A stretch of 64,000 bases of DNA from Sipunculus nudus. Its lineage: Eukaryota; Annelida; Sipuncula; Golfingiida; Sipunculidae. A program made the position numbers and the translations under genes. Of this stretch, positions 4,642-33,640 are shown piece by piece. Numbering within the stretch: the first letter of the stretch is position 1; each line of letters begins with the position of its first letter. The notes beneath the pieces were generated by a model. It was not told where the DNA came from. It saw only the letters and a program-made list of their open reading frames with translations, and made no database searches. The stretch spans positions 41,258,659-41,322,658 of the forward strand of contig CM049313.1 of the NCBI GenBank assembly GCA_026874595.1, given 5' to 3'.

Positions 4642-7600
4642 CTACAATTTAAACAATATCTTTCAATGATCTTGTTTCCAGGTTTTTAGAATCAGTCAAT
4701 GTCACTGAAGAATCATGCATTATGCACTATGGTACAATAATGTAGATTCAAAATTATCTGTCATCTTATTAAATTCCTTTGTGAACTTGTGGGTTAACAA
4801 TTACTACAAATTTACGAACTAAAAAATTTAAGAAAACAGTAGGTACAAAGAATGACCAACATGCTTATAATGACATGTATAACTATGCTTACATTTAATT
4901 ATTATAATAATGAAAAGCATTTTATCACCATCCTCAAGATGATGCTGTAATGCCCTCACATGGTTCTAGTGTGTACAAACAGCCTTAAATCACCACCCTG
5001 AAGAAATTGATTTTTTTAAAGTAAAGTCTTCAATAATATGAACTTCTGACAAAAAGTAAAGAATAGTTTTCCTCAAAAAAGGTAAATAGTGGAAGCACTG
5101 TGTCTCCTACAGGCCACAGACCTATCATTAAACAAGTAACCAACAGGCCATGATGCTCAGCTGAATTTGACATACATGAAATGTATGCATTAATCATTTA
5201 GATACCAGTGTGTGTATGAAAATGTTACTCAAACAGAAAAAATATTGTGAAACTTAACACGCATTAAATAACATTTCTGTAGGACAGAATTAAAGGCAAT
5301 ACATATTATTTCTATGTTGAATTCTAATGCAAAATATTTGTTATACAACCTGGAAACCTAGGAAGAGAGCTTAAAATCAGGTCTTTTGCCCAAAGTTTGC
5401 AGAAAATAGGTTACATGTAACCAAATTTCTGGTTTCAAAGAAGATTCACTGGGAATTGCCTCAATGCCAAGCCTGATGGTAACAATTTTTGCCATATAAC
5501 TTTTCTGTTCTGAAATCATGTTCTTTCACACAACTTGCACAATTTAGGTCACAGTTGTTTAGGTTTCTGAGGAGACTTTTCATGGACCTCTCTGTCTTTT
5601 ATACACAAGATTCAAGGTCTAATGGTTAAAATTTGTACCCTATCATTTATGTTTTTGGCCCATAGCTAGTAGAATAAAGGTCACCATGACCTAATTTCTG
5701 GTTTCCAAGGAGTTTTGCCTGTTTTTAGGTCTAACTTTATGCTTTATGCCCTGTTAACAACAGGACAGACAACAAACAAAGGGTGATCACTATAGGTAAC
5801 ATCCCTTATAGTCAGTTTAGCTGAAACCAACATTTCTGCTTACATCAGTGCTGTCTTCCTCTGACGAGCTGTCCTGGCCCTTGCGGTGTTTATTGTTGCT
5901 GTTAGCAGCTGCTGCCTTGGCCTGCGGATGACTAAGTGTTATGTTTGTGTTTCCTGACCCTGATGCTGCAGATGCTCGTCGGCATGGCAACCCCCTTAGA
6001 ACTCTGGTTGACATCCCCCGAAGGTCTTCAAAGTCTTCTGCTAAAGCCAGGAGGTCACTATACCTGAATTATGAAAAAAGTTGAAAAGATTATGTATCTT
6101 TTTATATGTCAAGGTCACAAAAACTACATTAAATCTAAAATATAAGTGGTCATTTCAAGGATATTTACTTAACACCTTTATCATTTTATTTATTATCTTT
6201 AATTAACATTATATAATAGTTTTATACATCTACTTGCATGTTAACAATGTTTCACCATGTATGGATGATTTTATATATATTGTTACGGAACCTAATATCA
6301 ACAGATCACGTATGTGTGACAAACATAAACTTTGTCATGGAGATAAAAAAATCAGATTCTGTAAAACAAGGCAACGTGAAATGTCTAGGGGAATGAATAA
6401 AGAAGTCAGTGTTTTTTTTGTTAACAAATAACTATAATTTATTCTTAAAACAACCCTAACATTACAATACACAAAATCAATACAATTACACAGTAAAACA
6501 ACAGTACAACAGCAAATCAATACAATCACACAGCATAATAAACAAAGTGCACAGTACCTGGATACCACCACTGTCACAGCGACAAGTCCTTTAAAATGTA
6601 TAAGCCGGATGAACAGTTCACACAAATCTTCTCAGAGAATAACAGTCCAGTTCATTCACAAAATCAATCCATTTTAATCCAAAAGTGAAGTTCTTGGTAT
6701 AATCCTGATCGCAAACTGAAGACTATACAAAATCCGTCACAAGTTTAGAAGAAAATTTATAACTGCCGCACTTATCAGAAAAGGTCCACAACTGATTACA
6801 CTCTTCTGTGTCAGCTGGAATATTTGTCTCCTCTCTCTCTGGCTCTAAAACACAGCCCCCTATTTATAACTTCTCACCCCAAGCCGAGAACTTTCAAATT
6901 CCCGAACAATCCAAAGAACTTAACATGATACACAGTACAGGAAACATCTAGAACAACAAACACCAAGTTTCTACACAGCAGGGTCCACATGTGAGCCGGC
7001 CTGGCTCGGCCAGGCGAGAAAGCCCCAGACTAACATGACCGCTGTGTGTTTACACTTGGGCTGCATGCATGGGCCGGGCTATGCCGGCTTAGCAACGGCC
7101 AATGCTAGAGTTGCACATACACATGTAAGACTGCTGATACAATAAAAGAGACATCTGTAAAGATATTGAATACAGAATTCTAATGATTTTTCAATTAACA
7201 AAAGTTTTCTCTTTTTGGTTAAGCTCAGGCCTTGATATATTATTTTTGTAATCAGTATCTTACTGATCACCGGCACTTCTTCTTCAGCATCCTCTGACTT
7301 ACCTTGTCTTTTGAGCTTCTGTCCCAGACACCTGTACATGCTGCAGTCCTTGCTGTATTGACTCGTGGGTCAGAACTACAATCATCAACATTAAAATTAT
7401 TAAGGAAGCTAATAAAAGCTGCTTAGATACTGTTAATCTGTGGCTGATGATCAAATTTATTTTCCAATACACTCTTTTAAAGTTCTGTATTTCTAATGAC
7501 ACTTCAAAGTTGTACTACATACACATAAACAACTGGAGGAAGATACTAATTTTTACTTAGTCTAGTACACTTATGTACAATGATACATTTAAGTATAGAT

Positions 7601-10600
7601 GTATACTTAAGTACACTGATACACTTAAGTACATTGATATACTTACAAAAACGTGAACATAAGTACACTGATTATACTTACAGGAGATGTTCCTGCAGCT
7701 CTGTCTCATGTGCTCTAGATGTGCAAGTATCTGTTCTACTGAGGGGTTCTCTTTTTTACTTGTTGTCTGTCTACAGGTACAAAATATTGAAAAGGTCAAC
7801 GTGTTATTACATAAGCAGGAACCATGATGAATTTGAATTTAAAATGACTTCTCATTGTCCTTGTTTAGCAATGTAATGAGGATGGTATTAACATTCTGCT
7901 CACTGTGTGGATCTTTACCAGGATTACCAACAGATTTTAACAATCTGATATTCCATGTTCCCCATAATACCAGGTTCACAAATTTCTCTTCAAAATACAA
8001 ACACAATTTAACTTTACCTTCTATAATTATGTGGTAAAATTACAGTAATGTAAATGTATTATCAAATTCATTTTGTCTGTGTTGTATTTACTGTAGAGAG
8101 ATCAACAGTAATAAAACTAATTCTGTTATGTAAATTTGTCTGAAACATATTATTATGATTTGATCTATTTTTGTATTATTTCTTGGTCAATAAAGTGGGT
8201 GTAGAAGTTCATGAAATCTTTTTTGATATATTCACTTGTATTGCAAAATACAAAAGGTGTTTTTCAGTAAACTGTTAAAGACATAAAAACCTGAAAAAAA
8301 ACAAATTGTGCATTTTACCTTTGGCGTTTGCGACTGGGCGTGTTATTGTTCCTGGTGATTTGCGTGTACAGAAGATCGGCCAGGCGGTCCTCACACTCCT
8401 GTGCCCAGTATTTTAATATGGAGACACAGAAGAAATCATTCCTCTTACACTCACGACATAAAATAGGTCGCAACAGGTCAGCTGTTGGCCTGAAATACAG
8501 TATCAAAACAGGTCACTTCAAGTCAGCTGTGTGCCTGAAATACAGTATTTAATAGGTCAAAACATATCAGCTGTAGGCCTGAAATACAGTATCAAAACAG
8601 GTTGCAACAGGTCAGTTGTAGGCCTAAATACAGTATCAAAATAGGTCACAACAAGTCAGTTGTGTGCCTGAAATACAGTATTAAAATGGGACAAGTCACC
8701 TGTAGGCCTGAAATACTGTATCAAAATAGGTTGCAACAGGTCACCTGTACGTCTGATTACAGTATATCAATATTTTATAATTAAATATTATATGTTTACA
8801 AAGAATGAGCACCATGCCTGCAATAAGAAACACTTAACTACCCACGGTAAAGTGTTTTGTATTCCTGACCCACCTAACCCTGGCGTTCTGACATTTGGTA
8901 AGGATGACTTTTTGGAGAGGAGAGGTAAAACGTAAGGGTTCCTTGATGATTTACTAGATGGAGATACGAATGACTTAAGCCAGCATCAAGGACAGAATGA
9001 GAGAAGAGTATAGCCAGTCTTAAACTGAACATCAGCCAACCCACTGAAGAGGAGAAGCACCATATTATAATCAGCTTCAATTTCCTAAGAAGTCTTTTAT
9101 GAATTTATGTCAAGACAACTCCTGAACCCTGACCATGACTGTATCTCCCACAGGTTTCCCAATCTGAGAGGGAGCACTACCCCTATAGCTTGGTGTATAT
9201 ATGTCGCAGTGACCTAATTTCAAGTTTCAAAGGAGATTTTTATTGACCTCCCTGGATTTTCAGTTAGAAGTTTCTAGGTCCAGCAGTTAAGTTATGCACC
9301 ATGCTATCAGAAGGCCGGACAGCCAGCAGAAAGACTATGGACAAAGGGAGATAGCTATGGCTCAACATGACTGAAAGTCATCCAAGCTATAATGATGGCC
9401 TCTCAAATCAGCCCCAGAAGGGGCTACAGGAGGAGACCTCTTGTGGCTCTGAATGAAATTAGTTGTCTAGATAAAAATCTGGAGGTGGTAGTTAAAGCAT
9501 CGTCCAGCAGAGACCTGCATTCAGTCCATATTGTAAAAAATAAGAGTTCAACTTGCTACAGGGTTGTGTAAATTTGCACAAGCCATATTAGTACTAGCAC
9601 GCTGAAATGGTGCCTGAATTATAATTAAAATTAGCACCAGCCAAAAATATCTGCAATTTTTTTTAAAAATAAATGAGAACAAATGTGAACCATTGCACAC
9701 CCCTGTCATAAAATAAAAGAATCCAACAATCTAATAAGCCTGGACATCATACAGGAAACAATGAATATATTGCTGAAGTAAACTGATACCAGGTTTCATG
9801 TGGAGATAACAAATGAGGTGTGAAGATTTCTACTTACGTCACTTGTTTCAGCTGAATCATGATGCTGGTCAGGGCTTCTGCATGTGCTACACAAGATAAA
9901 CAAACAAAAATGTCATCAAGTCCTCTTTTGTTTTACATTACAGTATGTCTGTTATTGTAACACCCTCATGTAAACTGCTCCTCACTCTTCATTCATATAT
10001 AAATAATTTGGTGCAACTGGGAGAAGTTTGTTTTCTAAAATATGAATTATATTAATATACATTGTTGGTACCTATAAAAGTTAGCATCAGAATATATTTC
10101 TACTGTTTCATAATTCTGAATTGTACAATCATTGTACTTTCTCAAACCACCACTGAAAAAGCTTATCTAGGGCCAAATTCAATGTCTACAAGATTTAAAT
10201 GAATCTGTCTGTCATTACCTGTATGTTTACAAAAAAAGGTATATAATAAAAAAAGTTAATACATGATAAACACTGTGTGGCCAATTTATCTGATGGCACA
10301 ACTGACATTCATCTCCCAACTCACAGCTGAGTTATTAAACACTTATTATACACTGTAATTTTCTTTTGTTTTGTATTATTTTTTTTCTTGAAATAATGTA
10401 GTTTCACTGGACAAAGAAATACCATGTATAAAGGAATGACAATGACGTGTGGAACCCCTGAAGTATCCAGTATAAGCCCTCACCTGTGAACTCTAGTTTT
10501 GGTAGGATGGGCATCATGTAGTCTACAGGAATGTTGTGAGCTGCAATCAGTTGCCACAAGAAGTACTGCTCTATTGTTTCCCACTCCAGGCTCGCATCTG

Positions 10601-13600
10601 TCAATCAATGTCAATCAATTAATCAAGATGTGCTATAAATATCGAGCATATTGCTTTAATTACAAAAACACCAAAGGTATTGTATATTCAAAATATATTT
10701 AATTAAAAGAATCTTTCAAATGTTTTTAAGTTTTACTTATAATTTTGCAAAAATTTGCTTTAATTCTTGATATTTTGCAATTAATCAACACAACATTGAG
10801 TCAATTTTCAATACCTTTCAGAATTATTTTAGGGAACCAGGCAAGAACAAAATTTATCAACATTACTGAAGGCAAGGTGCTCATTTGCAAAAAAGAAATG
10901 ATCCATGAAAAACCGAAGCAGTGAACCAGTAGAAAAATTAATTATTTTGGTGTAGCTTAGTAATGAAAGAATACTAGTGCACTGTGGAATTTAGCCAGAG
11001 AGTGCTGGGTAAGTAATGAAGCATGATGGGACTGAATGCACTTACTGAGCACTGACAAGAAGGAGTCTTTTCTGAACATGATCATGTGTCCTTGCAGTAT
11101 CTGGCAGATCAGATCTTGGAGCTGGAGAAGACAAGTGACATCAGATGATTCATTATACAACAGAGTAATACAACATTACAATATGATATGTAACCAAATG
11201 ATTAAAGCAGGAAAAGAATCAAAGGTGACAATCATCAAGCCATCCCCATCTTCTGCAAGTTGCATATGACTTTTACATTTAGATGTCATCAGTGATTATT
11301 TTTTCAAAAAGTTAGGAACTCGACTTTGTTTTGAAAAGACACAGATATAAAGAGAGTAGATTTGAACTTCAAGGATTATGACTCAGACTCTACTGGCCAG
11401 GACACAGCCTTGAACTCTAGACTCAGATAGTGTGGACTCTATACCAATTTTCCGACTATCAAAATCATACATAAGCTAAACACCAACAACTCATAATACA
11501 GCTTATATTTATAACCACACAAAACCAGCATGTGAATCATTTCTAAATCATATTTTTACTATTATGGTTTTATTTGAATTTTTGACCATTTAAACCTAGG
11601 TCTACACACAATATTCGACCAATTATCATGGTTAGTTCTTGAGATATCGAAGAAAATAGAATTTTCGTCAATAGCGGCCCTAATTTGCATATTACAAAAA
11701 ATCTCTAGCTTCATCAATCCTCTTGTTAAGAGAGTAAATATATTTCTTGATTTTTTAAAAAGTGCATTATGTTTGGGCCCATCACTTAAAACAATTACGC
11801 AAGACTGACATCATTTCTGGCATGTGCATAGCGAATGTATAGAAAAATATGTATATTATATATTATCAAAGTCAGATCATTGGTTTTGATATTACGCAGT
11901 CTTAAAGTGTAACAATGGGTTTTCAATGGAAAAATGAAGTTTTTCATTAATATCTTGAAGGAATTAAGTCCAAGTGACCAAATTCCTTGCATGGTAAGGG
12001 ATTTTGGAGACATCAAACTGTATGCCAAATTTAAGGAACTTAGAGCAGAAGTTTGAGAGCTGAGCTCTAGCAAACTGCATAACACTAGCTTGATGTAAGC
12101 AATATGTTACATGGTGCTTGAAAACTTGAATAAAATCTACAGTTTTTGATCAACTGGTTTCAAATTTTTGGTGTTAACAGTTGAAATGCTAACAAAAACA
12201 TGCTTTGAAAAATAAATCCACAGCAGTAACAGAAAAAAACGTGCCATGGTCAAACTTGGGCAAAATTTAAGGTACCAATTTATATTTTTGCCAATATTAA
12301 AAAAAAATTAACAGATTTTGATCTAATTTTTGGTATACAATTAAATTTTGAATAATTAAAGTTGTATTACTGAAAAAAAGTCCCTACCTTTAACACTTTT
12401 GGTCTTAAGTGACGAAATATCTTTCCTGATTTTCTTACAAAGTCCATTAGGTTTGGGCCCATAACTTTTTTAAATTATATAATACTGACTTAATTTCTGG
12501 CATGTACATAGGAACTATATAGAGGAATATTTATGGTAAATATGAAGAAAACCAGATGAGTGGTTTTGATATTAGGCAGTCCTGAAGTGTGAAAATAGAT
12601 TTCTAATAAAAAATTGAGGTTTTTCCTTAATATCTCGAAGGAACGGAGTCCTATTGACCAAATTTTTGGCATGGTAGGAGATTTTGGGGATATCTTACTG
12701 TATGCTGAATTTCAGATTCGTAGGTCTAATGGTGTTGAAACGTGCCAGTCTTATGGACGGACAGCGGATGGACAGACGGACGTTGGACAATGGACCACGA
12801 CTATAGCTCAGATGACCTATAGTCAGCTGAGCTAAAAATTAAGCTCAGCCCACCTCCACTGAAGTAGTACTCAGAACAAACCAGTCGAAAAAGTCCAGTA
12901 AAAATGGCTGCCTTTGACCATAAATTTTGCAGTCAATGGTTGAGCAACAGTTTTCTTTTATATTTAGTCTGTTGAAGTCCACATTGAGCCAGACACTAAC
13001 TAGAATATCAGCAGAAGCTGACTAAAGCCCTCAGCCAAAAGAACAGTGTTTGTAGGTGGTAACAGTAACAAGTATGAAATATTTGTTCTCACATGGATGT
13101 ATATCTGTACATGTCTCAGTTATAAATTTAAACTGGAGAGGTATGTTGTACTTGCAAGTATGGTAAGACCGATCTCATGCAGGACTTAGAGATCATCAAG
13201 GTATATCATTATACCATGTTTCATAAACATCCACCCAGTGGTTCCTGAGAAATAAGCTCCTAAGATTTTTCTATTCTAAGCTGTGAGACCTTGAAAAATT
13301 AGGCCAAGGTCACCTATCTTTGAACTTGACTAAGATTTTGTTAATATGCATCAGCACTGAATAATGAAGTTCCTATGTTAAATACCATTGAAGATATCCT
13401 GCTCACAAGGCCAAAGTTGAAAAATCCAATAAAAATTCACTGAAAATCAGAAATTGTAGGTGGTGCCCAAAAGCTTGTGCAGCAGGTACAGACCATCAGT
13501 CCCAATTATCATAGTAAGTTTTGTGAAAATTCACCCAATGATTCCTGAGAAATTAGCTTCTAAGTGTTTTTCTATAATTAGCTCTAAATCATAGAAAAAT

Positions 13601-16600
13601 ATGTCAAGGTCACCCATCTTCGAACTTGACTGAGATTTGGTTAATATACATCTTCACCAAAGAAATAAAATTCCTACGGTGAATCCTTTTAGAGATATCC
13701 TGCTCACAAGGTAAAAGTTAAGGGACGCCAGACAGACGGATGGACAGACAGCTTGGGTGACAACAACAGCCCATCAGCCTAAGGGCTGAGGGCTTAAAAG
13801 CAACTGAGGAGTCCATTCTTATGGACAACCATATATGAAACCTCACTTGTCTGGCAGACACAAAAATACCAATCATGTGATTGATTCCATTTACTGCTTA
13901 CTACACACAGATTTTATCTGAGCAGACTGAGTAAACAAGGGCGAGGAGTTAATGTAACAGTCACCAGCCTAATATAAAATGAGTAGAGCGGGGGAATGTG
14001 CTACTCATAATCGGTCAAATACGCCTTATAACAACACTGCCTGTGTGGGCAACAGCTGAAGCTTAAAGGAATCAGCTCAATAGGAATGTTAAATAAGGAT
14101 GAAATAAAGTGGTCTCCTTAAATATTATGGTATCTGCCAATTCTCATGCTGAAAATACTGGCTTATTCTTGTACTCTAGTGAAAAAGGAGCCAAACCACA
14201 TCACTTTACAAATCAAGATTTTTTTCAAGCTTCCAACCAGTGCCTCTTGTGTGTTTCTTCTTCTTGTTTTGGAGTTACTGTGCTTTCTCAAGATTATATT
14301 TCAAATCACACAAATAATGTTATTGTAAACACACAAATGTGGTCTGTGTTTACTCACACACAGAACCATAACAAAGTATAAAACAGGTTGACTGGAGAGA
14401 GTAAGTCTATGTGCTGGGATGGCTTGCAAATGAACTACTAGCTTTAAAAAATACACATATTATTGTAAATGTGTATGTACCTTAAAACTGTGTGCGGAAG
14501 TCATTTCAATGTCATTATAAAAGTTTTGATTTTTACTAACTGCAGAAATCAATTTAACAGAGAGAACTTTAACCAATTAAACAGAGAGGATCTAACCTAC
14601 CTGACTGCCATCTATACAAGAGACAATGAGATGTAGCAGATCAGTATTTCCTATGGCAATATTGGGGAACTGGGAAAAAGAAGAAACAAAATATACAAAT
14701 CATGAATAACAAAAAGGAAGTGCTCCAATAAAAGGTGTCATTTTAAGTTTGCTAGATTTTGCTTCTTAAGTGTTGGTCTAGATTTATTCTGTATATAGGT
14801 AAAAAAAGTTAATTTGAATTAAATCACATTCTTATAAATGCAAGTATTCAAATATTCTCTTATCATTTAGCCTTTAAACTTTATCTGAAACTTATCATTT
14901 GAAGATAAATAGTAAGTTACTGTATTCCACACAGTTAGACGCAGTAATTAAGAATACTCTTTTCATTTTCTTTTCTAAAATGGTACATTAGAAATCCTTT
15001 GTTCCCATTACATCCATCCAAACAATCATTTTTTTTTTGTATATTTTTATATTCAATCTATCCCTCCCCCCCCCCCCACTCTGTCCATACATTTTTAACA
15101 GATAATATAAATGATCAAGGGGTCAACAACCATTTGTAACATATTCAAACCTACCTGGGCATATATGTCAGGGATGAGGAAGGAGAACATTCTGACATCA
15201 TCCTCTTGACATAACTGAAAGTAAGATAGAGTACTATAAATCCATGCTTCATAACACAAAACACTGATACATCATTGTGACCTTGTGAAGAGCCTAAATG
15301 TTACAACAAAGTACAACAAATATTTATGGCATCAAATTGACAACAAAATATATATTGCTTCAGCTTTTGTGTTTGAGGCTGGCATTTGATACTGTCACAA
15401 GACTTCTACAGAAAAGCCACAGCACCCAGATTTCTAATTAAACCTGAACTGCTCTGAGGGCTACACTCAGAACTCCCTTAAGACAGGGAGTTTTCTGTGG
15501 TCATACATGCTGCATGTTTAGTATTAAACATTTAAATTAACCTAAAGCAAATCCTCTAACTAGGTAATGTTGAACTTTTGGCAAAGATACCATATTATCT
15601 GAGATAGATATTAACTTTAAAGGAAATATGGTGTCAGGATTTCTACCATATTAAAATTAATCAGTGCAGTAAAGGGGTGTCATAAAAGTTATTCTACCAC
15701 ATCTCAGACTGTGGCATTGAAATTAATACATGTCTATTTACAAGGGATCATGGACAACATATCTCCTAAAGGGAAAAGTCTGTGAACTATCAGAGTTTCA
15801 TGGACAGCTAGCTATTTGACTGACAGGCTGCAGAGTGACTTACTGTCAGGTCTGTCATCAGACACGTCTCCAGGTCCCGGGTATCCATGAAGCTACAGAA
15901 ATCCTTATAGGCCACCATTCTGTCATCATGGATTTGTTTGCTACAAAAAGACAAAATTGCTCATGAATATTCATACCTTTAAGTCCCTATGTGCTCTAAC
16001 CTATTGGAGATTCTCTGCATAATAGCCAATATATAAATAGTATTTTACAAATACATTTATGGGCAATGTATGTTTTAATTACATTATGTTTGTTTCTGTG
16101 TGTTATAATCTGATTTATGTTAGCACTATCCAGAAACAAGGGACCCATGGGTCATGGCGCTCAGCTGATTGTGATAGTTATAACTGCATCACCATAGATT
16201 TTTTGAAGTTGCAATAAAATACTATCCTCAGTGCTCAGGAACTAGGGCTCAATGACTGGGGGAAGAGTTACAACACCTTTGCATTTAAATATAGAATACA
16301 GAATTAAATTCAATGGTGCTAACAGGGACTGGTGGGAGTTATAACACCTCTGCATATATGTAAAGGATAAAATTTAATTTAAATGAAATTATTTTAAATA
16401 TTTGAAAATAAGCAGAGAGATGGAAAACAAAGCAAATAACTTTAATTTCCATTCTACTGAGACAGGAAAATAGTGACAAATTTTTGCATTAGATCCTTTT
16501 TTTTTCTTAAGTCATTTTTTTTAAGGTTTATCAATTTTACTATATATTTACATTATATCATATATAATTGAATATTTAAATTGATTCACAAATCTAAACT

Positions 16601-19600
16601 GCATCAACATTTATACTTCATTTAGTCAGGTAACATCACATTATGCACACAGATATATATTTTTTTTTTGTATAATATATTTTTTAAATTTGCAAAGCAA
16701 TAAATATATGAAAATAACACTCCAGAATTCACAATTTTAAATTACACCTTTATTTATCCATGATTTGTTTCATATATTATCAAATTATGCCTATCATTTA
16801 AAAGGAAATTATTTCTTAAAAATGCTACATCAGAACAATGTGGCATCTCTTGGATTACTTCTTGAATTTATATTTCAAGAAAAGTTTTGCACATTGGATC
16901 AAAAACAGCTTTACATTTAAAGAAATACAGTTGACAATAACAAACCATGTATTGCAAAATAACTGGTGATGGTGGTGGTAGGGGTGTTAGGGTAGGGCCC
17001 ATGAGAATAAGTGTATGTTTATTTTGGCACGGGTGTTCTGCCAGTGCTGCATCACTAATAAGGTTACCTAGGCAAGGCTGTAGTGAGCAAGAGTGGGGTC
17101 TTGGATATACAAAATGCAAATACATTAGAGCATCTAAAAACTTCAATAATTAGAATAATTTTTAGGCTTTAACTTTCAAATTTTAAAATTCAACAGATTA
17201 AATCCATATGTATCCCTGCTGTGAAAAATAAATTTAATATACTTATGAGAAAAAACCATGCCATGGTCAGATTTGGGCAAAATTTTGCTAATATTTTAAA
17301 AAATTTAAAAGATTTTGATATTATTTTGGGTATACAATTAAATTTTGATTAATTAAAGTTATACTACTGAAAAATAGTCCCTAGCTTTAACATTTTTTGT
17401 GTTAAGTGATCAAATATTTTTCCTGATTTTTTACAAAGTGCAATATGTTTGGGTCCATAATTTTTTAAATTATACAATAGAGACCTAATTTCTGGCATTT
17501 ACATAGGAACTATATAGAGGAATATTTATGGTAAATATGAGAATAAAGATGAGCGGTTTTGACATTAGGCAGTCCTGAAGTATGGAAATAGGTTTTTAAT
17601 AAAAAGTTAAGGTTTTTCCTTAATTTCTCAAAGGAAAGAAGTCGCAAAGACCCAGTTTTAGCTTGGTAGGAGATCTTGGGGACATCTAACATTATGCTGA
17701 ATTTAGGATTCCTAGGTCTTACGGTTTCAAAACGTGCCACATCTACTAACAGACAGATGGAAAAATTCAAGAAAAAGACATGAAATCATGATGAAAAATT
17801 TAAAAATTTATTCAGTAAAAACTTGACCTACCTGACTTTGAGGAAGTATAAAAAGTGGTAGCCCACGCGGGGCTGTTTGGAATACATCTCCTCCATAAGG
17901 AGGGAGATGGGCTGCCTGTTCGGGTCCTCATCTTGTCTCTGACATAAGTTTCTGAAGACAGAGCACAGAACATTCATGCAGGTATCTGTTACCTGCCCAG
18001 TAGCAACTCAATTTTAGGGTTAAACATACAGTAATTTATCCTTTTATTTTAATCCTCATGAAAAATTTTAATTAAAATGATGCAGTCACACAGTTGAAGC
18101 TTCCCTTTGAATACACCTACTTTCATTTTTAAACAAAATAAAACTGAAAATTGAACATTTAAAGCTTGTCTCAAACAAATAAGCCCTCCAGGTATACTTT
18201 TGTTTTGTTTCATTTCACCTTATGGTTGATGATTCGAAAGTGCTGCTTTTATTAACTTGTTATATTTTAGATCAATGCCCAAGACTGACTGCTGTGAACA
18301 GCTCAATCACCAATAAAATTTTCACAGATATAAATACATAATGCATTCTTCCGTGGCAAAAGTAAAACAAAATACAAATGAGATCCTTAAAATTATGCAG
18401 TAAAAAAAACAATGTTGATAACATGAAAATACACTTTTGTTATCTAAAAAGAACTATTTGTAAATTGCTGTATTTTTTCAAAAAGATTCTTGTTAATGTA
18501 TAAGTGATTTATGATTATCACATTTGTTCACCTGAATATGACAAACAATGGACACCCTATGGAATCTTCTAAAGATCTGGAAAATGAAAGAAAACATAGT
18601 CATGAACACATTCATGTTGATCACATGTTATCAGCCCAAAACCCAGTGGTCCTCATTACAGATATAAACAATTTATCAACATATTTCCAAAACATGTTTC
18701 AAAGAATTATTTCAACTGATGCTTGCTTAATATTTATTTCAATTATTGTACAGAAAACCCAATTCAATTGCCCATAACAGGACTACATGAATTACCTGCT
18801 GGGGCAGCAATGTTTCAGTTTCTTTTTCTTTTACATTTAATGAATATGGTCTGGGAACCGTTGACATATACATATTCTTAAAGCTGAGCATAAGCTCCAC
18901 AGGGGCCATAATAACCCTTTTCTGCCTGTCTCAGACACGGAGAGGCATTTTTCATTTTGTACCAATCCTTCGGAAAGGTGAACACTTAGATGTTATCCAC
19001 ATTAGTAGCTGATAAGTGTAACAAACATGACACAAAAACAAAGCACCATAGGGTCTTCCACTGACTCCCTATATTTTTTCTATATTTTCCTGTAAAAATG
19101 GTCTATACTTTCTATACTTTAGGCCCTCATCTCCTACATTTTCTGATTTTTTTTCCACTGCACTTCAGTGTGATAAACAGTGTTACTATTGAAATCCTTC
19201 AGTTCTTTTGGCATGAAAGTGTGCACATAGGATGGCATGTAAGATGGCAGAATCAGGTTTACACTGAGCAAAGTATGACTGAAAGTCTGAATTGATGGTG
19301 AATGCATCTTTAGCGGAAAGGCAAATTTTTCTGCAGAAAGACAAACCTTCATAAATGCCTTTCCCTTGGAAAGCTAAAAATGTCAAAGTATGATGATCCC
19401 TGCTCTACATTATGAAATATAGAAACTTCATGAAAAATGGAGTTTTCCAGTACTTGGCGATATCATTATGATTAAAAATTTTCATTAATTTGCTAGATTT
19501 TTCTTCATATTCATTTATTCCAGCATTGGGAACAAGATTATAAATTCTGGGCTACAAAAGATGAAAATCCATCACAGAACAACACATCAGTGGTATGTAG

Positions 19601-22600
19601 ACACTGGTTTAAAATAATGCTATATAAAGTATGGATACCACTGGGAGTGTGTGAGGTTTAGCTTTTTTATTATTTTTAGTTATCCTTCAATTATAAAACA
19701 AAGACTAGTCTCACTCTTCATCCAGCTCTGCTGGTAAGATGGTTCGGTTAAAATGGTCAATCAGCAGCTGACAAACACACGTAGCCAAGACTGACGATAA
19801 TTCCGAGTCAAAATCCTCCTGTAAAACACAGAAATTATCATCAATCACTGGTTGACTCAGCCAGGGAAATCCCAATAATTTATATAACAATTCCTCCCTT
19901 AATGTAAACTGACCCAGTTAATACACAAATAAACAAATAACACCTCTGATTTTTAGTTTACTGTTACAGTAGACTTTACAAGTCCCATGTAAAAAGTGGG
20001 TATAATATTCTTATTGAGCAACATATCCATAAACATTAATACATTTTTATCATATACAATAAATTCTGTCAAGACTATATTCTCTTGAGGAAGCAGAATT
20101 TATTGAAAAGAAGTGAACTGATTACTGATCGAACAGTCTTCACTTAAACCTCCAAGTCCTCTTTTTATATGAAACAGGGGTGTTTCTAGAGGCTTTTTGC
20201 CTCAGTGACAGGCCAACATTCTGAATCTTTTACAGATGACCAGATGTATCACAAGCCCGAGGCTTAAGTACCATGTTAGACCACTAGTTTTCATCAACAC
20301 AAAATATTACTTTATAACCAAATGTTTTGATTGAGACATAAATCTAAAAGGATGTCATTATTATTATGAATAGCTGCCAAAAGCAATTGTTTCACTCTTT
20401 TTGTCCATTTGATCTTACCTGTAACATTGTTTGTACAAGTCGATCCATCAATTCACAACGCAGTTCATTGTCTCTGGAAATATAAAGGGAAACTGAATTA
20501 CTGAGACACAACAACAGAAGTAGTCAGAAATAGTAAGAAACAGGGCGCAGTGCTGACCCACATGAAGTAGTATATACTAAGAGCTGTGAAAGAGGTTTCT
20601 CATGTATTAATAAACTAGGGCTGAAACAGGTACAAAATTTTGGACTCGAGTACCCGATAGGTATTACCTGACTCAGACTCGAGTACTGGTTACCATGGCA
20701 ACGCTGTGAAGATAAAACGAACATCTGTTTACTGATGCAAAATATGCATAAATTTGACTTAGTGACGGCTTAACTTTATCGCAACGAAGGAATAGATATA
20801 TGTCAAAACAAGACCTCGATTAATTTGACTAGCATATGTTTAGAGCCCTACGCCAGGCTACGACAATGGATAAATAATTCTACAGACTGTCCTAAAATTT
20901 GCAGTAATATACATATATGCATGTACATACAAGAGTACTCGAGTCCAAATCTTGGACTCGAGTACTCAGTAAGTATTACCCGGACTTGAGTACTCGAGTA
21001 CTCCTTTCAGCCCTATAATAAACAAGTTTATAACCTCAATAAGCTAAAACATGCTTTCCTGGCCTTAAATAATTAATTATAACAAATGCCTTCTTTCAAT
21101 TGGGATCATAATTTCATCAAGGTTTGAATTTTTTTTTCAATTTTCAAATATTCAGAGGCACAATTTAAAGGACTATATTCATGTGAAGTATATTGTTTCC
21201 CTATATATTCATTATTCAACGTCAAAACAAGAGATACAATTCATTTAGCTTTACATGTGGTCTTATAACCTTCTCTGTGCTCTCTCCTTTGTGTTCTTAG
21301 TGTTTTCAGGTACATTTAATGATTTGATAAGTTTAAAAATAAATATTAAATTTTAACTGTTCTGGAACCTTACAATTAAAGAGGAAATGCTAATCATAAG
21401 TCATGAAAGGTAAACAGCATCACTTCTCCATATGCCATCAATTCAAAATAAACAAACAAACACAATTGTACATTTATACACACTACTGCATCCCTCCTCT
21501 TAAAGGCTGGAAATTTGTTGTATTTACCTGGATGCCATTGTATTAACCTGGATGTTGTTTCATTTACCTGGATGTTGTTGTATTTACCTGGATGTTGTTG
21601 TATTTACCTGGATGTTGTTGTATTTACCTGGATATTGTTGTATTTACCTGGATGTTGTTGCATTTACCTGGGTGTTGCTGTATTTACCTGGGTGTTGTTG
21701 TATTTACCTGGATGTTGTTGCATTTACCTGGGTGTTGCTGTATTTTCCTGGATGTTGTTGTATTATCCTTGATGTTGTTATATTTACCTGGATGTTGTAT
21801 TCACGTGGATGTTGTTGTATTTACCTGGATGTTGTTGTATATACTTGGAAGTTTTTGTACTTACCTGGATGTTGTTGTATTTACTTGGATGTTGTTGCAT
21901 TTACCTGATGTTGTTGTATTTACCTGGATGTTGTTTAATTAACTTTGATGATGTGGTTTTTACCTGTATCTTGTTTTATTAAACTGGATGTTTTATTTAC
22001 CTCGACATTGTTGTATTTACCTTGATGTTGTTAAATTTACCTGGATGATGTATATACCTGGATGTCACATTTACCTGGCTGATATGGTATTTACCTGGAT
22101 GTTGTTGTATTTACCTTTCTGTTTGGATCTCTAGCACAAGCTCCTTCATCTCCCCATCTAGCTGCTCCACATGTTCTGTGATGTTGATGGGGATGAAGCA
22201 AGGGGCCTCGGGGATGGTCCGGAACATGATGTCATTCTTGGTTTTCTCTGTAAAACAATGGTTTTGACTGAGCTAATGTATGTTGTTGAATCATTTACAA
22301 CTAGTTATTTCATAAAATACATGAAGATTATCCTTGTAGTTGAAGTTATTTTGAACAGTGACCCGCTTGACAGATTGAGCTGTATGAACTTCTCATTGCT
22401 CTTGTTACAAAGTACTGCTTGTCCCACTCATTTAAGGGCATAAATGGGGTCCACATCTACTATTTATTATAAACTGAGAAAACAAGCCAAGACAGTCCCC
22501 TATTAAAGACAGGACTTCACAAATTTGTAAGAATTACTTAATCTGGGCAAAATACATACACCGTATGACTCTATGATTAAATTTTAACTCCTGGAATATA

Positions 22601-25600
22601 CAGACACATTTGAATATGAAAACCTTCAGTGCCTCCTTCTTGATTATCAATTAGACATGTTGAGTGATGTAGGACTAGGTCCAGACTATTGTTCAATCAG
22701 GTGAACTCACTTTGAAGTTTGATACATGTGAACTATTGACAGAACAATTGTAAGTTTTATTGCTGCGTTAGGAGCTAAATGTAATAAATATTTGATATAT
22801 ATGTAAACTAACACAGAAATACACACCTGAATATCAAAGTTAATTTTAAGAGCTTTTAATCAAGATATTTTCAATAGACTCTGACTCCAGTTCCAAAAGA
22901 CTTATCAAAGAATGTTGACTTGGACAAAGGCTTCAATATTCATGTCTATGCTTGAACTTAGACTGTCACTCTGACACTGTGGCGCCATCTACATTCATCT
23001 TCTGTAGTTTTACATCATTCTACTGACCTACAGCGGGCTCCTCTTCCTCGTCACTAAACTCGGCGACCTCACTCAGGTTGTTAGCATCAGTCATGTGATT
23101 ATCCTCTGTTTCACCTTCCCTGTCCTTCACTACAAGGCCTGGGTCCTCTTTAACTAATTTCAGACAATAATATACCTACATGCAGGTCAACTGACTGATA
23201 AACCACTCTTAAAATTTATCACTGATCACACAAATCCCAACAAAATATGTTCAGACAAGAATACTTATTTATTATGTAATCCAGTTACATAAAGACTTTA
23301 TCTCGTTTAAAAAGATTTAATTTGAAATCTTTAAAATCCTCTTTTGGTTATTTTGTTCAATACAAAGATCTTTTAAAAACATTATGAATTATTCTCTGAA
23401 CCATAAAATGAAAATATTAAGATACCAACTGACCGATTTGTTCTGTTTTGTGATATAAAGTTCTACAACAGCTCAGCGTTATATAAAGTGCCAGAGTCTA
23501 ATGAGAAACAGAACCTCCATCTCACCTTCACAGAACTCAATGAAATGTTCTCTGATTGTGGTTCTCAATTCTCTGTCCAATTTAGGGTTGTCAAACAGTG
23601 GCGACAGTGACCTGAAACAGGGATGGTGGAAAAAAAACCTAAAATTTTGATCATCATGTGTTTTTATATGAGGACTTTTCATAGATTATAAATTACCCTC
23701 ACTTTAACAATGAAAATGATCAGTAACAAATATTCAGCCTATATTAAATACTGAGAGTAGTCCAATGAGATGGTTCAGGTATATTGGACTGTGGAACTGT
23801 AGGTCCTGAGTCTGATCCCTGCCACAAAAACAAATTTTCCATCTACAGAAACTCAGAAACCCACTCTGATGACTAGATTTATTCCAAGCCCTTTTCACAC
23901 AAACTGTATTTCTATATGGATGCAAGGTAAAATTCAGCAGTAACTTTACAAATCAAGTTCAACAAAGTAAACTGCAGTTATTGAGGTATCAGCCTTAAAA
24001 ACTAAAATAAAACTATCACCATATATAACAAACGATTTAAGAAATTCAATGACACCACTATCTGGGGAAGCAGTCTTTTTTTCACAACATCTCAGTCCCA
24101 CTGATGAAGGTCAAGGGTCTCAGAGAACTTCTTTATAGAAGCTGCTCATCAAATTTTTATTGTCATAAATATTATTAAATGTAACAAAATAAGGTTGACA
24201 ACCTCTAGGAGAAGCCATGTCACATTTGACAAGGCCAAGAATATTCAAGGTTGTAAAATATAAATGTTGCTTCTTGTCATTAAGTTTTCCCATCTGATAT
24301 TAGGCCTTTAATCACTCATTCACTTTACTGTCAAATGGTGTGACAATATTTAGGGTTGACAGAATATTCACCAAATTTCAACGGTCACTCACTCAAATGA
24401 GGCATCTTGGGTGTTAACTCAACACTAATACTTACTGCAAAACTCTTTTATCAAGTATGCTCCGCAAGGATGTGAAGATTCCCTGCTTTATCTTGTCTGA
24501 TAGGGGTGGGTGGAAATTAGTCATGATCTGCAAAATTCATACAAATATATAAGACTCTACAGCATACTTCAAATCTGAAACAGAATACTGTCGTGTGACA
24601 AGAAATATTGAACATTACCCTTTTTAGGTCATTTTAGTTGATGAATTGGTACTATATATGACAGTGTTGGAGACAGCAAAATTGATGTGAAATTATAAGT
24701 GATTATAAGTATCTTAAGGTATGGCAGGCTGTAAAAATAATGATGTTAGATGAATGGTTTATGCTGATAAGTGTCTTAGAAAGCAGGTTCAATATATTAA
24801 CATTTAAAATATTACTGAACTACACAGTTTAAGCTGATAAGTTGTAAGGCTCAGAGATTGCTTTGATATTTTCAAGGATTCAACTAGTCAAAATTAAGCT
24901 CAGCTAAAAATTCCATGACTCTATTATTATTGTCTTTGTCCTGACCTAATAGACCAAGCCTCGGACCTTTGAAGCTTGCAAGGATAAAATAACTTACACG
25001 ACACATGAAGTCAAGGAGGGTGGCAGTGATGGCGGGATGAGGCCGTATGGAGTGGTACATCACCAGGACACATGGCTCTAAAATCACAAACATAATACAT
25101 ACAGCTTCATACTTTCTGTCTACACATGCAGGCATCTTATAAAAAACCTGACATTTGAATGAACAGTTTGCTCCTTGTACATAGTATGACAGTCACTCGA
25201 TCCTAGCAGGAACATCAAGAGGTATAAGTTTTCTAAAGAATGCAGTGGTATATCATGTCAGGAAATATATATCTCATCTATAATAACTTTAATAACTTCA
25301 TAACCAACCCTCACGAAAGTCCACTATCGGTTACCTTATTTGTACATACTAGTCTTTGCTCTAATAAATTTGTACTCAAAACAGTTCATTATACTTAATT
25401 TGTACTCAGCAATAATCATGTTACTCAATAAATTGTGTTCAATATACTCCATTGCTAATGTCCATTACGCCTTCTTTTCACTCACAATATGCATTACATC
25501 TTATTCAATTTGTACTCACCAATGGTCATTATGTTCATTTTGTTTATATTCAAATCCTTATATTCATTTTTCATTATATTCAATCTGTGCTGACAAAAGT

Positions 25601-28600
25601 TCACTATGCTCCACTTGTACATAAAAAAGTTTTACTCATTTTGTACAAACACCTATGTTCATTATACTGTATGAACATGCTTATTATTAAAGTTGTACTC
25701 ACCAATGTTCATTATACTTTCTTTCTCTGGGTCAAAGAAGAACCAGTCATAGAATAAGGACAACTTTGCATTGGTGGCTGCAACATTTGACTGAAAACAG
25801 GAAAATCATAATCAGCAAACAATGAATGATGTTGAGATGTACCCACTGGCTTTGTATTTTTCTATTTATTCTTTGTTTTTTTGCTTTGTTCACTGTTATG
25901 TATATAGTTAATTTAGCTAAACCCTGCATTAATAATATACAAATATATCTTTAGAAAATATTAACCTTCTCTCTTTGATATTCTCAAATAGGAAATAAAA
26001 CCATATTAAACTAGAATACAGGTAGTAGACAAGCAACTACATGTATCTGCAAAAATTAGAGTGGAATGGGTGAAGCAAGGCATGGATTGAGTGGCAAGGG
26101 GAAATAGAGTGAGGTGTGTTGCATATTAGCATGGATGTCTGCAGCTGAAATCTGTACTAGGTGGTGCCACCTACCAAAAAATCGAGAAAGCTATCCAAGA
26201 TGTATGAACATGCAAAATTTTAGGCAGATAAGTCAAACCACTACTAAGATACGAGTGTTTTAAGCCCACGGCAGACAAACAGACGGACGCAGTGCAAAAA
26301 TGGTTGCAGGTAGTCCCTCCAGTTTTGTGAATGATAAAGAGCTATGTGAGATCTATACACATGCAAAATTTTGGCCCAATCAGTCAAACGGTTCCCGAGA
26401 TATAAGCTTGGATGTATGCAGCATAAACTAGAATGTAGGTGGTGCCACCTGTCATAAAATCAAGAAAGCTGTCCAGGTTGTATAAACCTGCAAATTTTAG
26501 GCAGACATGTCAAACCACTGTCGAAATATGAGTGATTTTATCTCACGGCAGACAAACAGACGGACGCTGTGCAATAATGGTTGCAGGTGGCGCCACCAGT
26601 TTTGCGTATGATAAAGAGCTATGTGAGATCTATACACATGCAAATTTTCAGGAAGATACGTCAAACCAGTCCAGAGATATAAGCATGGATGTCTGCAGCA
26701 TGAACGTGAATGTAGGTGGCGCTGTCTGTCATAAAATCAAGAAAGCTACCCAGGATGTATACGCATGCCTAATTTTCAGGTGAATTAGTCAAACCACTGC
26801 AGAGATATGAGTGATTTAAACCCAAAGAAGATGAACAGATGGACATTGTGCAAACATGGTTGCAGTAATTGTTAAGTATGTTTCTTACTGTGCATGTGGT
26901 TAGGAGCCAACCAATCACAGCCCAGCGTGGTATGACATCAGACTGCAGGAGCTCATTAGACGGGTGAAATACAGCACATATGTAGCGAATAAGATCACAG
27001 CGTAATGACTGACTCTCTGGTGTGGACAAATACTACAACATAAATAAAGTGCACATACAAATAACAAATACCAAAGAAATATGAGATACAGAGTATATAC
27101 TCATACCAGGTGTTCATGTGAAATTGTTTACAAATACCACAAAAATAAACAGAATAAAGTATTTGTATGATTATTTAACAATTATTTTTTCAAATTGTCA
27201 TTAAGGGTATTAATTTTGAAATTAATGGGCTCAGATTACAAAATATTCTCAAATGACAGGTGGTGAACTATTCAGGTGTGGCTGCATTCTGTATTTCTAT
27301 CATTAAGTTCTAAGTTATATAATTTATAATGTACCACCCATTATAATGTACAAACCATTAAAACTACATTAACTAAATAAGTGTAATAAATAACTGATGA
27401 TCAACTAAAATGTCAGTAAAATCTTAGCACCCTATATTTTAGAGAGCTATTTTTAGGATTACTTGACATCAAATGCTACCCTATATTAAGCTTCACAGTA
27501 ATAAAACAGTCTTGGATTAACAGTACATCCTACATACCTGTCTCTGAAACCAGTCTTGATATCTCTTGTGGTTACCAAATTTTACCTGCAAGATTGAATT
27601 GATATTAAAAATTTATGAATACCATAAAACTGTATGAATGACACATAAGGAGCACAACATAAATGAAGGCTCATACTTTACAAGATATGCATTAATAATG
27701 GTAATGATTTTTTTCCCTTTCAGCTTGATTCATTCACATAATCATAAAATAAGCTGTATTGGAACCTCAATTTTTTATTCAAATCTCTTTTAAGGGCTTT
27801 AGACATTTAAAAAAAAATGATAAAAAATATTATTTTTCCAAACAATTCTGGCACTAATTATGGTTTTTAGAATAATATACTTAAATACAAGCAGGTACTA
27901 CTGTCTATAATCAGATCCACTCACTTTGGTGGTGAGAAAGATGAGTTTATTCTCCATATCAGGAGTAAGACGACAAACAATAAACTTCCTGGATGTCCTC
28001 ATCTGCATAAGCTGCAAGATGCCTGCAATAAATTAAACAGAAAACAGATACATAGTCTGAAATATATAACAAGATGCCTGAAATAAAGTAAACATATATA
28101 AAGTATGAAATATATGAGAATGACAAACATACACATTGATTTTTTTTCAAACAATTCTTATACTAAGTTATGGTTTGTTATAATCTGAATTTGAAAAAAA
28201 TTCTCCAGGTTATTCCTGCTTTTTATTTCCCACTAAGATATAAGCCATTTTAACCAGTGAATCCTGCTTTCATATGAATCTACATCAAATGTTTGATCAG
28301 TTTGCTAGAGTTTCCCACTGTTAGTACAGACCTGTGAATGTAGGTGACAGCACTGATGGGTTGTAGAGTATGTCTTGCCAGAGCTGTTCAAACTCTGGTA
28401 TTCTGGTTACATCCTGTAACAGCCTCACTAAGTCTCTCCCAATGGTCATACAGTCATTCCACTGAAATGAAAGAAAACATACCTAGTTCAAGAAACATAC
28501 CTTAATATGAATGTCTATAAAATCTTTTAGTCATGCTGGTCTAAGATACTAAATATCTGAACAGCATGAAGATCATGCAATTTGTTTGGATGATAAAGGT

Positions 28601-31600
28601 TGTGAGTAAACAATAGCTGCAACAACCTGACTCAGTAGGCAATCAGATATTAGGGATGGTAAGGCTACTAAAGTCGTGATACAAGTAATATCGAGGAATG
28701 TATCACGGTGGTCTTGCATCAGGTTGCATTCATAGTGTGGTAAAGACCCATAATTTCAATTTTATACTAAGAATGATAAATTGACACAATAGTATACATG
28801 TGAGCTCACAACCCAAACTGAAACACCGTCTCCATGGACACGGGTCATTTCCTGTATTGTCTGTAAGCTGCCTGCATCCTGTAATCTGTGCGAGCCATGC
28901 TTGTGTTCATGCAGTCATAAATTCAACAAACATGCCGAGGGGTTCACCAATGTGCTGGATTAAAACTGAACTTTTCTTGCTCATGTTTGGCATTATTAGA
29001 AAGTACACAAAAAATGCTAACGACTGGTCTGGTCTATGTTGATTGACAGTGTACCTGTAGACCATGAAGCGTTGTCAGAAATGACGAAAATATTTGCATC
29101 TCCAACAGGCCTTATAATGCGTTCCTCAGACCTAGATGTAAAGACACTCTGGCGCCAGAAATCTGGTCATAATGCCAGAGAGTCGATATGACGCCAAGTA
29201 AACACAAGACCAAGAGATCTAATTTTCACTCTGTGCCATACTGTGTATGCTGGTGGTTGATCAAGCATTAAAGAAGTTTAACATCAGTTGCAGCATTAAA
29301 AGATTAATTCTTCATATTCATCATGATCAATAAGTCTGTAAAGTTTCATGATGACAGATGCAATGGCTGCTGATGTATTTGGTAACAAATTGGGATCTAG
29401 GAAGCTGGATGCTGTGCCATCCCATCAGTTCACAGAGTAATCTGACAAGGTCTGCCATTTAAACAGCTTGCTCTGTTGGTACATGGATATATTAATGTCA
29501 GTAAGTGTTAGTTACATTTGTACCATTTCCTCATAGACTTCAATTTAAGAATTTTATCAAATATAAAATATTCTAAAGCATAAAATAATCTATGTAAATA
29601 TGAGATATTGAGGAATCAAAACATAATGATTTTTTTCAACTTTATTAAAAAAAACTCACTTTTTCTCTTAAGCTCTGTATACAGAAATCTACCTCCCTCT
29701 GTCTCAGCACACTGAAGGTTGTCGTCGTGTGGTCCACTATCACCCGCAGATACGTGTATACAGCCGTCTGTAGCAGCACTGGGTACTTGTCTAACCACGT
29801 TCTGAAGCAAAGGGAATTTTTAAAGTACATTCAATCAGACTGATTAACATCAGTCATCAGCCTGCAGACATGGGGTAATAGTAATAAGTAATAGACTATT
29901 ACAGCTTTTTCCATGTATTAGTAAAATTTGAGCTGTAATAGTAATAGTAATAGAAACAGAAGGCAAAGTAATAGAGTAATACATATTACTTTCTATTACT
30001 TCCTGTGAGCCCCTTGATCATTAAGCATATCAGCAAATAATGCTGAACAGACTCAGTTCTTGTCCAGTAACTGCCCAGGATGTGCCTATTGTTGAGGCAA
30101 GCATGGGCCAGCTGCCACATTGCTGGTGACCATTGGTGCTAATTACATAAGAGTACTGGACAGAGTAGGTCACTGCCAAATAAGTTACCTGGCACAATCT
30201 GACCTTTGATTAGTAAACCATGGATAAGCAGAGGCATGTTTGATGTTAAGAGACAGATAAATATAGTGTTTTATTATTGTGACATGTACATCTTATCTCA
30301 CATCCATCAATCCATATGCATATTCTGAAATGTACTTAGATTTGTTTTCACAAGCCAGTTTGCATTTTAATCATACAAATTGCAATAATACACTTTCAAG
30401 AAAAATATAATATGGAACCAGATACAGTGCAGACCCAAAATGTTCATGATAAGCTTATGGTGTTTTCACTACCCATAATGTACTGAAGCCTACAATGCTA
30501 TAAACTCAGACCAGTACTACAATCACTTGGATAAAGTCATACTGCAGGCACATGTATTATCTAGTTAATTTATATACATATTCTTTTAAAACTATTCTTT
30601 TAATACTTGTCTGTTATTTCATAGAACCAATTTTGCAGACCTTCATTCAGTATCTAAAATTATGTTAATTTATATTTTAAAAATTAAATGAACCATTTTT
30701 TCATGATATTAATTTATTTGATTTTATAATATGAGAATATAAGTAACTGTTCATATTTTATTATTTAATATCTGAAATTTTGATATCAAATAATTAGATC
30801 CTGTTATGTACTAAATTTAAAGTACAAGATTGTTTAATACCAAATTTATTGTGAAAATGATTTAAATAATATTTTTTTGTTTTGTAAAATTGATGTAAGT
30901 TTAAATCACTCTCTATATTCCTAAATCATCCTATGCTTGTTTTGCTGCAATGAAGAAGGGCATGCCTGAAGAATAAAAGCCATGCTTGCTTCCATTATTG
31001 TAAAGTTTACCACCTCTCTGTTCACTCTCCAGATGTATTATGTGATGGAATAAAACATGGCATCACATCCAAATGAACATATACACCAAGAAGATGGGGT
31101 ACTTTTGTCTCCAGTTTGGTTCTGTCCAGAATCTTGACATAAACAGTATTATTATTGGATATATTTATAAGGATTTGGAAACAGGACAAAGCCCTACATA
31201 AATTCCTATCCTGATACATACATAAAGGATTGAATTGTCAGCTTTGATACTAAATAATAATATGCAATAATCATGAATAATTTCTCTGGAGACAATTTTA
31301 GTTACACTGAAATTTTTTATTTATTGACTATGAGAACGAAGATTAAATTGAAACAGAAGTATGTACCGGTACTATAAAATAAATTGATGTGAAATATATA
31401 TGAAAATAATATAAAATGAACAAGCATGCATATAATTATAAATCAATATTTTACATATGCCAAGGCCTTTACAATGGGTTGCTTTAAATTACATGTATTC
31501 ATGAGTTCATACAATTATCTTATAAAATCAACTTGAAACACCCCAATAAGGATCAGTGAGGTTTCAAAATATTAAAAAATACAGAATTAAAGAAGCTGAA

Positions 31601-33598: not shown

Positions 33599-33640
<42 letters not shown>

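Follow-up and report, generated by a model that had tools for sequence, protein, structure and literature searches.

When copies of an exon-intron junction lie in tandem in the neighbouring intron, do they reflect a process that seeks out junctions for duplication, or the ordinary turnover of repeats in introns that are full of them? The question is raised by a 64,000-nucleotide stretch of the Sipunculus nudus genome (assembly GCA_026874595.1, contig CM049313.1, positions 41,258,659 to 41,322,658 of the forward strand), referred to here as the window, whose minus-strand gene is identified from its sequence as INTS3. An earlier note on this DNA had described duplicated junctions at six of about 58 exon ends of the gene, and had proposed either a process that favours splice junctions or selection that lets arrays grow on the intron side alone. 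The analysis presented here, extended to other genes of the genome, argues for the second: ordinary intronic tandem-repeat turnover together with purifying selection at the exon side very probably yields the arrays that span junctions, and such minisatellites are a regular by-product of tandem-repeat-rich introns.

The INTS3 gene model

Exons 2 to 30 of INTS3 (5820..55322, minus strand) were assembled from open frames flanked by AG/GT borders, giving a model of 29 exons (28 bounded by AG/GT and the last exon) that reads without interruption in a single frame of 989 residues; the model does not include exon 1, which was not located. Exons are numbered E2 to E30, each number being one higher than that used in the earlier note. 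Besides the gene model, the identification draws on exon-by-exon matches to PF10189 and PF24566, the N-terminal and C-terminal HEAT domains of Ints3 (7 and 6 matches, respectively, all within INTS3 of the window on the minus strand when the whole genome was searched), and on a PDB match, in which residues 1-601, used as the query, match Integrator complex subunit 3 in structure 8rbz_c from one end to the other (E 9.1e-246). The frame is preserved only with the exon-proximal copy of each duplicated splice site, and we infer that the cell splices INTS3 at that copy.

Junction copies in INTS3

Four of the six duplications, at E16, E27, E11 and E8, are real and include exonic bases, while those at E28 and E25 are at background level. 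At E16 (22247-22115) a donor array at 21515..22140 on the minus strand has a 20-bp unit in about 31 copies (21515-22116 and 30.8 copies according to Tandem Repeats Finder, TRF), with the working donor after 22115; exonic bases are copied, GT is kept in 27 of the 30 decoy donors and the reading frame hits a stop immediately past the exon. The acceptor duplication at E27 was likewise borne out, with a 45-bp unit in 7 copies that include exonic bases (8455..8765, minus strand; TRF array 8460-8765), the working acceptor lying before the first exon base at 8489 and AG being kept in all 6 decoys. The donor copies reported at E11 (25330..25718, minus strand; working donor after 25703) are also genuine and include exonic bases; they are old and diverged, GT is kept in 2 of 4 recognisable copies, and the array is absent from the TRF output for the window. 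At E8 (28015..28126, minus strand; working acceptor before 28022) the claim of an acceptor duplication stands as one old copy, with a period of 55 and not 56; 34 of 56 bases match overall, and the junction 28-mer is matched better, with a Smith-Waterman (SW) score of 20.

The donor duplication proposed at E28 is weak. The 18-bp array near this donor (7566..7682, minus strand, with only the opening bases of the intron copied, at +35) is delimited by TRF at 7566-7645 and ends 37 bp before the junction, the last base of E28 being 7682. The best copy of the junction segment scores SW 12, which is also reached by 61 of 448 interior control positions within INTS3, and its aligned part begins one base ahead of the junction, so that hardly any exonic sequence is duplicated. 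At the E25 acceptor (first base 10597) the proposed repeat is trivial, a 10-mer in 2.1 copies (10597..10619, minus strand) that holds no exonic bases and is indistinguishable from background; the window has many comparable short two-copy rows, and the 20-mer of this repeat occurs once in the genome.

The observation of duplicated junctions is partly confirmed. In the copy test set out below, 4 of 56 INTS3 junctions were copied against 5.3% of interior positions, which is no clear excess, and INTS3 is not exceptional beside the sampled genes (4/56 against 10/363 junctions, Fisher p 0.10). Array edges are nominally clustered, 3 of the 26 TRF arrays of INTS3 beginning or ending no more than 10 bp from a junction (p 0.003 by placement without exon overlap; p 0.02 and 0.04 when random placement allows 15 or 30 nt of exon overlap). 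INTS3 is the discovery case, chosen because of its junction arrays, and the clustering was not repeated in the sample.

Repeats and splice junctions in sampled genes

The junction test was fixed before other loci were taken. A first sample of 200 exons (65 myosin, 90 kinesin, 25 HECT and 20 dynein) was chosen from 299 listed matches (75, 126, 68 and 30); weak matches were passed over, as were one member of a near-identical pair of HECT copies and the greater part of a myosin repeated-exon cluster, and each chosen exon was taken with 600 bp on either side; the sample covers four protein families and about 0.3 Mb of the 1.43 Gb genome. Boundaries were predicted by reading frame and by a weight matrix for splice sites, for which INTS3 served as training set and the sample for refinement, and exon ends scoring above 4 were retained (363 of 400; 25 donors and 12 acceptors, 37 in all, were dropped). 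The junction 28-mer, consisting of 12 exonic and 16 intronic bases, was sought in the next 350 intron bases at an SW score of at least 16, and 28-mers beginning 40-164 bases into the intron served as the interior control.

For junctions, the rate of copying into the adjacent intron was roughly half that of intron interiors: 10 of the 363 junctions (2.8%) against 5.4% of interior positions, a ratio of 0.51 (0.25-0.82 by bootstrap over junctions) that came to 0.56 with a complexity filter and 0.55 with a stricter score (8/363). The copy rate rose from 0.8% for a wholly exonic segment through 2.8% at the junction to about 5% from +40 on, and this profile of the 363 junctions was smooth, with no peak at the boundary (offset 0). 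A second sample of 13 further exons (23 junctions; 3 of 26 ends dropped) gave 2 copied junctions of 23, against 50 of 729 interior positions (6.9%). Among the 120 merged TRF arrays of the first sample, 6 edges lay within 10 bp of a junction against 7.7 expected, and 22 within 30 bp against 19.2 expected. The arrays span 11 junctions, where 25.3 would be expected under free placement, 10.4 or 14.1 if an array may reach up to 15 or 30 nt into the exon, and 5.0 if it may not enter the exon at all.

The earlier note had asked for a search for repeat edges enriched within 10 bp of splice sites, and run on the sample this search gave no enrichment. Since neither edges nor copies are enriched at junctions, a junction-favouring process is not supported, and a preference of repeats for junctions is rejected. 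The more specific proposal, that a lineage-specific repair or replication process at transcription-linked structures targets junctions for duplication, could draw on the nominal edge clustering within INTS3; set against the halved copy rate, and the lack both of an offset-0 peak and of surplus close edges in the sample, it is highly improbable. The smooth rise of the copy rate, and the fact that random placement with 15-30 nt of tolerated exon overlap reproduces the edges and overlaps observed, fit selection under which growth is allowed on the intron side alone, together with ordinary repeat turnover in introns.

The course of events that we favour would run as follows. Introns would fill with minisatellites through generic tandem duplication, by slippage or unequal exchange, and some duplications would straddle an exon-intron boundary by chance, copying 14-49 exonic nucleotides together with the splice site. 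The exon-side edge of the array would be set by purifying selection and not by a process that seeks junctions: because the exon-proximal unit must keep the reading frame, the array could grow only into the intron, and its decoy donors or acceptors would look no worse than the working site.

Several points weigh against this account. Placement without any exon overlap leaves an excess in the sample, both of edges within 30 bp (22 against 13.8) and of spanned junctions (11 against 5.0), and in INTS3 taken alone the edges are nominally clustered at p 0.003-0.04 depending on the null. The sample is limited to the four protein families, with boundaries that were predicted and not derived from RNA. 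Finally, neutral decoys by themselves leave the apparent conservation of splice cores, described below, unexplained.

Junction-spanning arrays across genes

Arrays spanning junctions were found in myosin, kinesin, dynein and HECT genes. Donor arrays lie in a HECT gene (L108, 52 bp in 69 or more copies, running to the end of the 3.6 kb taken), a dynein gene (L122, 35 bp, 41 copies), a myosin gene (L134, 36 bp, 28 copies) and a kinesin gene (L116, 52 bp, 15 copies), and acceptor arrays in kinesin genes (L024, 31 bp, 23 copies; L039, 72 bp, 9 copies); seven arrays were extended beyond the initial fetch before copies were counted. According to TRF, the arrays of E27, L024, L134, L108, L039, L116, L122 and L112 extend 14-49 nt into the exon. 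Their tandem units include exonic bases together with an intact-looking splice site, as in a splice-site-bearing minisatellite at an exon boundary.

The decoys are well preserved. In 11 arrays (the L loci, E16 and E27) the splice dinucleotide is kept in 218 of 233 decoys, 201 of which score above 4, and each of 12 arrays has at least one decoy scoring no lower than the working site; the arrays match their own junctions at 20 to 28 of 28 bases. Most units (20, 31, 35, 46, 52 and 59 bp) are not multiples of three, so that splicing at a decoy would in most cases put the frame out, and stops are met on reading through those donor arrays that were displayed.

A genome-wide count of triples of the donor consensus CAGGTAAGT with 8-38 bp spacers gave 265, against 133 for the reversed pattern, which on its face would speak for duplication targeted at junctions; the count, uncorrected for single-motif frequency, is left out of the evidence, since overlapping triples within a single array enter it many times. 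Arrays with a perfect CAGGTAAGT in each unit occur, for example, at C7:75038247-75040411, C4:88723147-88724890 and C6:81597891-81599189.

Conservation of splice cores among decoys

Copies were aligned to the consensus of their own unit, with the working copy excluded, and the core was taken as +1 to +6 for donors and -6 to -1 for acceptors. Seven of the 11 loci with junction-spanning TRF arrays entered the test (L024, L039, L108, L112, L116, L122 and L134, with about three or more copies and clear exon overlap), while L001, L026, L035 and L078 were excluded for few copies or little overlap; the 11-array version excludes the old array at E11 and the 12-array versions include it. The effect was found post hoc in 12 arrays, and the six-base width fits best, other widths being weaker (rank p 0.0055 to 0.087).

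In 11 arrays the cores held 44 mismatches to consensus against 104.7 expected (p 5e-5, with random columns drawn), and with E11 the figures were 51 and 110.6 (p 0.00014 when columns were permuted; the mean rank was 0.279, p 0.003). An initial form of the test, with 12 arrays and shorter flanks, had given 48 against 75 (p 0.0018), and 15 against 25 for the dinucleotides (p 0.047). In raw counts the cores differed at 51 of 1425 positions, the adjacent 12 exonic nucleotides at 255 of 2853 and the adjacent 12 intronic nucleotides at 250 of 2894, neither flank of 12 bases showing a reduction in mismatches. In donor arrays the low-mismatch stretch coincides with +1 to +6 and its edges are sharp; positions -2 and -1 vary more than the average position (2.69 and 2.04), a poor fit to simple pairing with U1. 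The core ratio stays at 0.38-0.50 when each of the 11 arrays is left out in turn. These results are suggestive, and short of proof, that copies differ in the splice core at roughly half the rate seen elsewhere in the unit.

Mutability was considered as a cause and fails to account for the donor cores: correction for trinucleotide context left 108.6 mismatches expected against the 44 seen in 11 arrays, and in 28 control arrays away from junctions the best donor-like site had a ratio of 1.05 (mean rank 0.486). For acceptor cores mutability may be part of the cause, as the best acceptor-like site of the control arrays had a ratio of 0.71. Detection bias was also rejected: the arrays were partly found by their similarity to junctions, but conservation is absent from the exonic and intronic flanks that the detection window takes in, and the seven TRF loci with sufficient copies and exon overlap all entered the test. 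A further candidate is descent from the working site, whose constraint would make the cores of its copies look conserved, as the close match of the arrays to their own junctions might lead one to expect. In the working copy constraint extends to the exonic bases as well, and still the unit varies as much in its exonic part as on its intronic side (255/2853 and 250/2894); because exonic unit positions are not conserved, this source-copy effect is not favoured and appears unlikely.

Alternatively, the decoys may be kept by selection or by drive at the level of the unit, whether through use, through binding of U1 or other factors, or through amplification restricted to units with an intact core. 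The halved mismatch count, low mean rank and contrast with both flanks, the sharp donor edges, the behaviour of donor-like control sites and the stability under context correction and leave-one-out all lean this way. They are offset by the small, post hoc set and its dependence on core width, by the modest contrast with control sites (rank p 0.0099 overall, 0.026 for donors and 0.22 for acceptors), and by the somewhat low ratios of control acceptor-like sites and of antisense sites in the junction arrays (0.78). Two arrays, L112 and E11, run opposite to the effect (ranks 0.91 and 0.82), the cores of E11 (rank 0.825) being kept no better than the rest of the unit, and the extra variability at donor positions -2 and -1 is unlike what U1 pairing alone predicts. 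We therefore hold maintenance of the decoys as a tentative proposal, somewhat doubtful on balance. Arrays born by chance and then maintained, with six-base decoy cores under constraint and tens of functional-looking sites of which the exon-proximal one is nevertheless spliced, would be a conceivable but less than probable combination of the two.

Other repeats and elements

Several further features lie within or near INTS3. An open frame of 667 codons with a reverse transcriptase domain (RVT_1, E 8.6e-33) at 47758-49758 on the minus strand, within INTS3 intron 2, is probably a retrotransposon without long terminal repeats. One dispersed element occurs twice in the window (26009-26865 and 38851-39889), each copy with a common 134-nt flank (84% identical) and, after it, a 277/278-bp unit in 2-3 tandem copies; it resembles a mobile element that carries tandem repeats inside, and the copy at 26009-26865 stops 24 bp from the E10 donor. 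Large minisatellites near or upstream of E2 occupy 53414-54549 and 56774-58221 (22 bp in 51 copies, and 26 bp in 56 copies with higher-order periods), and at 40467-40903 two copies of a 216-bp unit with a 98% match mark a recent tandem duplication. Elsewhere, on contig 2 (44848559-44854198), consecutive myosin-head matches to one stretch of the profile (about positions 90-153) are likely a cluster of alternative exons.

Implications

If about 2-3% of junctions are copied into the adjacent intron, some of them as ten to seventy intact sites that are not weaker than the real one, site strength cannot mark the exon edge there. Arrays of this kind would then be natural experiments, in which the choice of a splice site among identical neighbours becomes testable in natural genes, and a warning follows for genome annotation, as pipelines and splice-site predictors will set boundaries wrongly in genomes of this kind. 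Should the retention of decoy cores hold up in a larger set, decoys would have to matter either to the cell or to the spread of the repeat itself.

Comparison with known systems

Repeats that carry splice sites at exon boundaries are of an already known kind. Some mammalian constructs with duplicated donors favour the intron-side donor, and the present arrays are a puzzle if that preference applies here. A minisatellite supplying multiple donors in a transcript was reportedly described in 1995, with a donor in each unit, as in our arrays; its title places the multiple donors in the transcript, whereas the arrays here are known from DNA, and the frame needs the exon-proximal copy. Literature titles and abstract openings yielded nothing on tandem repeats at splice junctions in molluscs or bivalves, which does not prove absence, and literature listings and abstract openings held no description of the frequency of such arrays in a comparable genome or of constraint on decoys.

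Two further published systems are comparable in part. Internal tandem repeats at exon-intron boundaries of human paralogs are described by De Grassi and Ciccarelli (2009; PMC2812944), and like the arrays here they span the boundary and affect splice structure; the repeats covered there are variable, belong to recently duplicated primate genes and give new introns or exon repeats, whereas ours are long intronic decoy arrays in conserved genes. Dual-specific splice-site arrays of the UBC type, treated by Duan et al. (2024; PMC10809524), share with ours a splice site carried by tandem units, although the units described there are coding and are delimited by AGGT, which serves as both types of site. 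In the present genome AG precedes GT in 4 of 7 donor-array unit consensuses, and the other 3 lack AGGT, which speaks against dual-specific splicing as a general rule; these 3 consensuses, and the acceptor arrays that the genome also holds, are points of difference from the UBC type.

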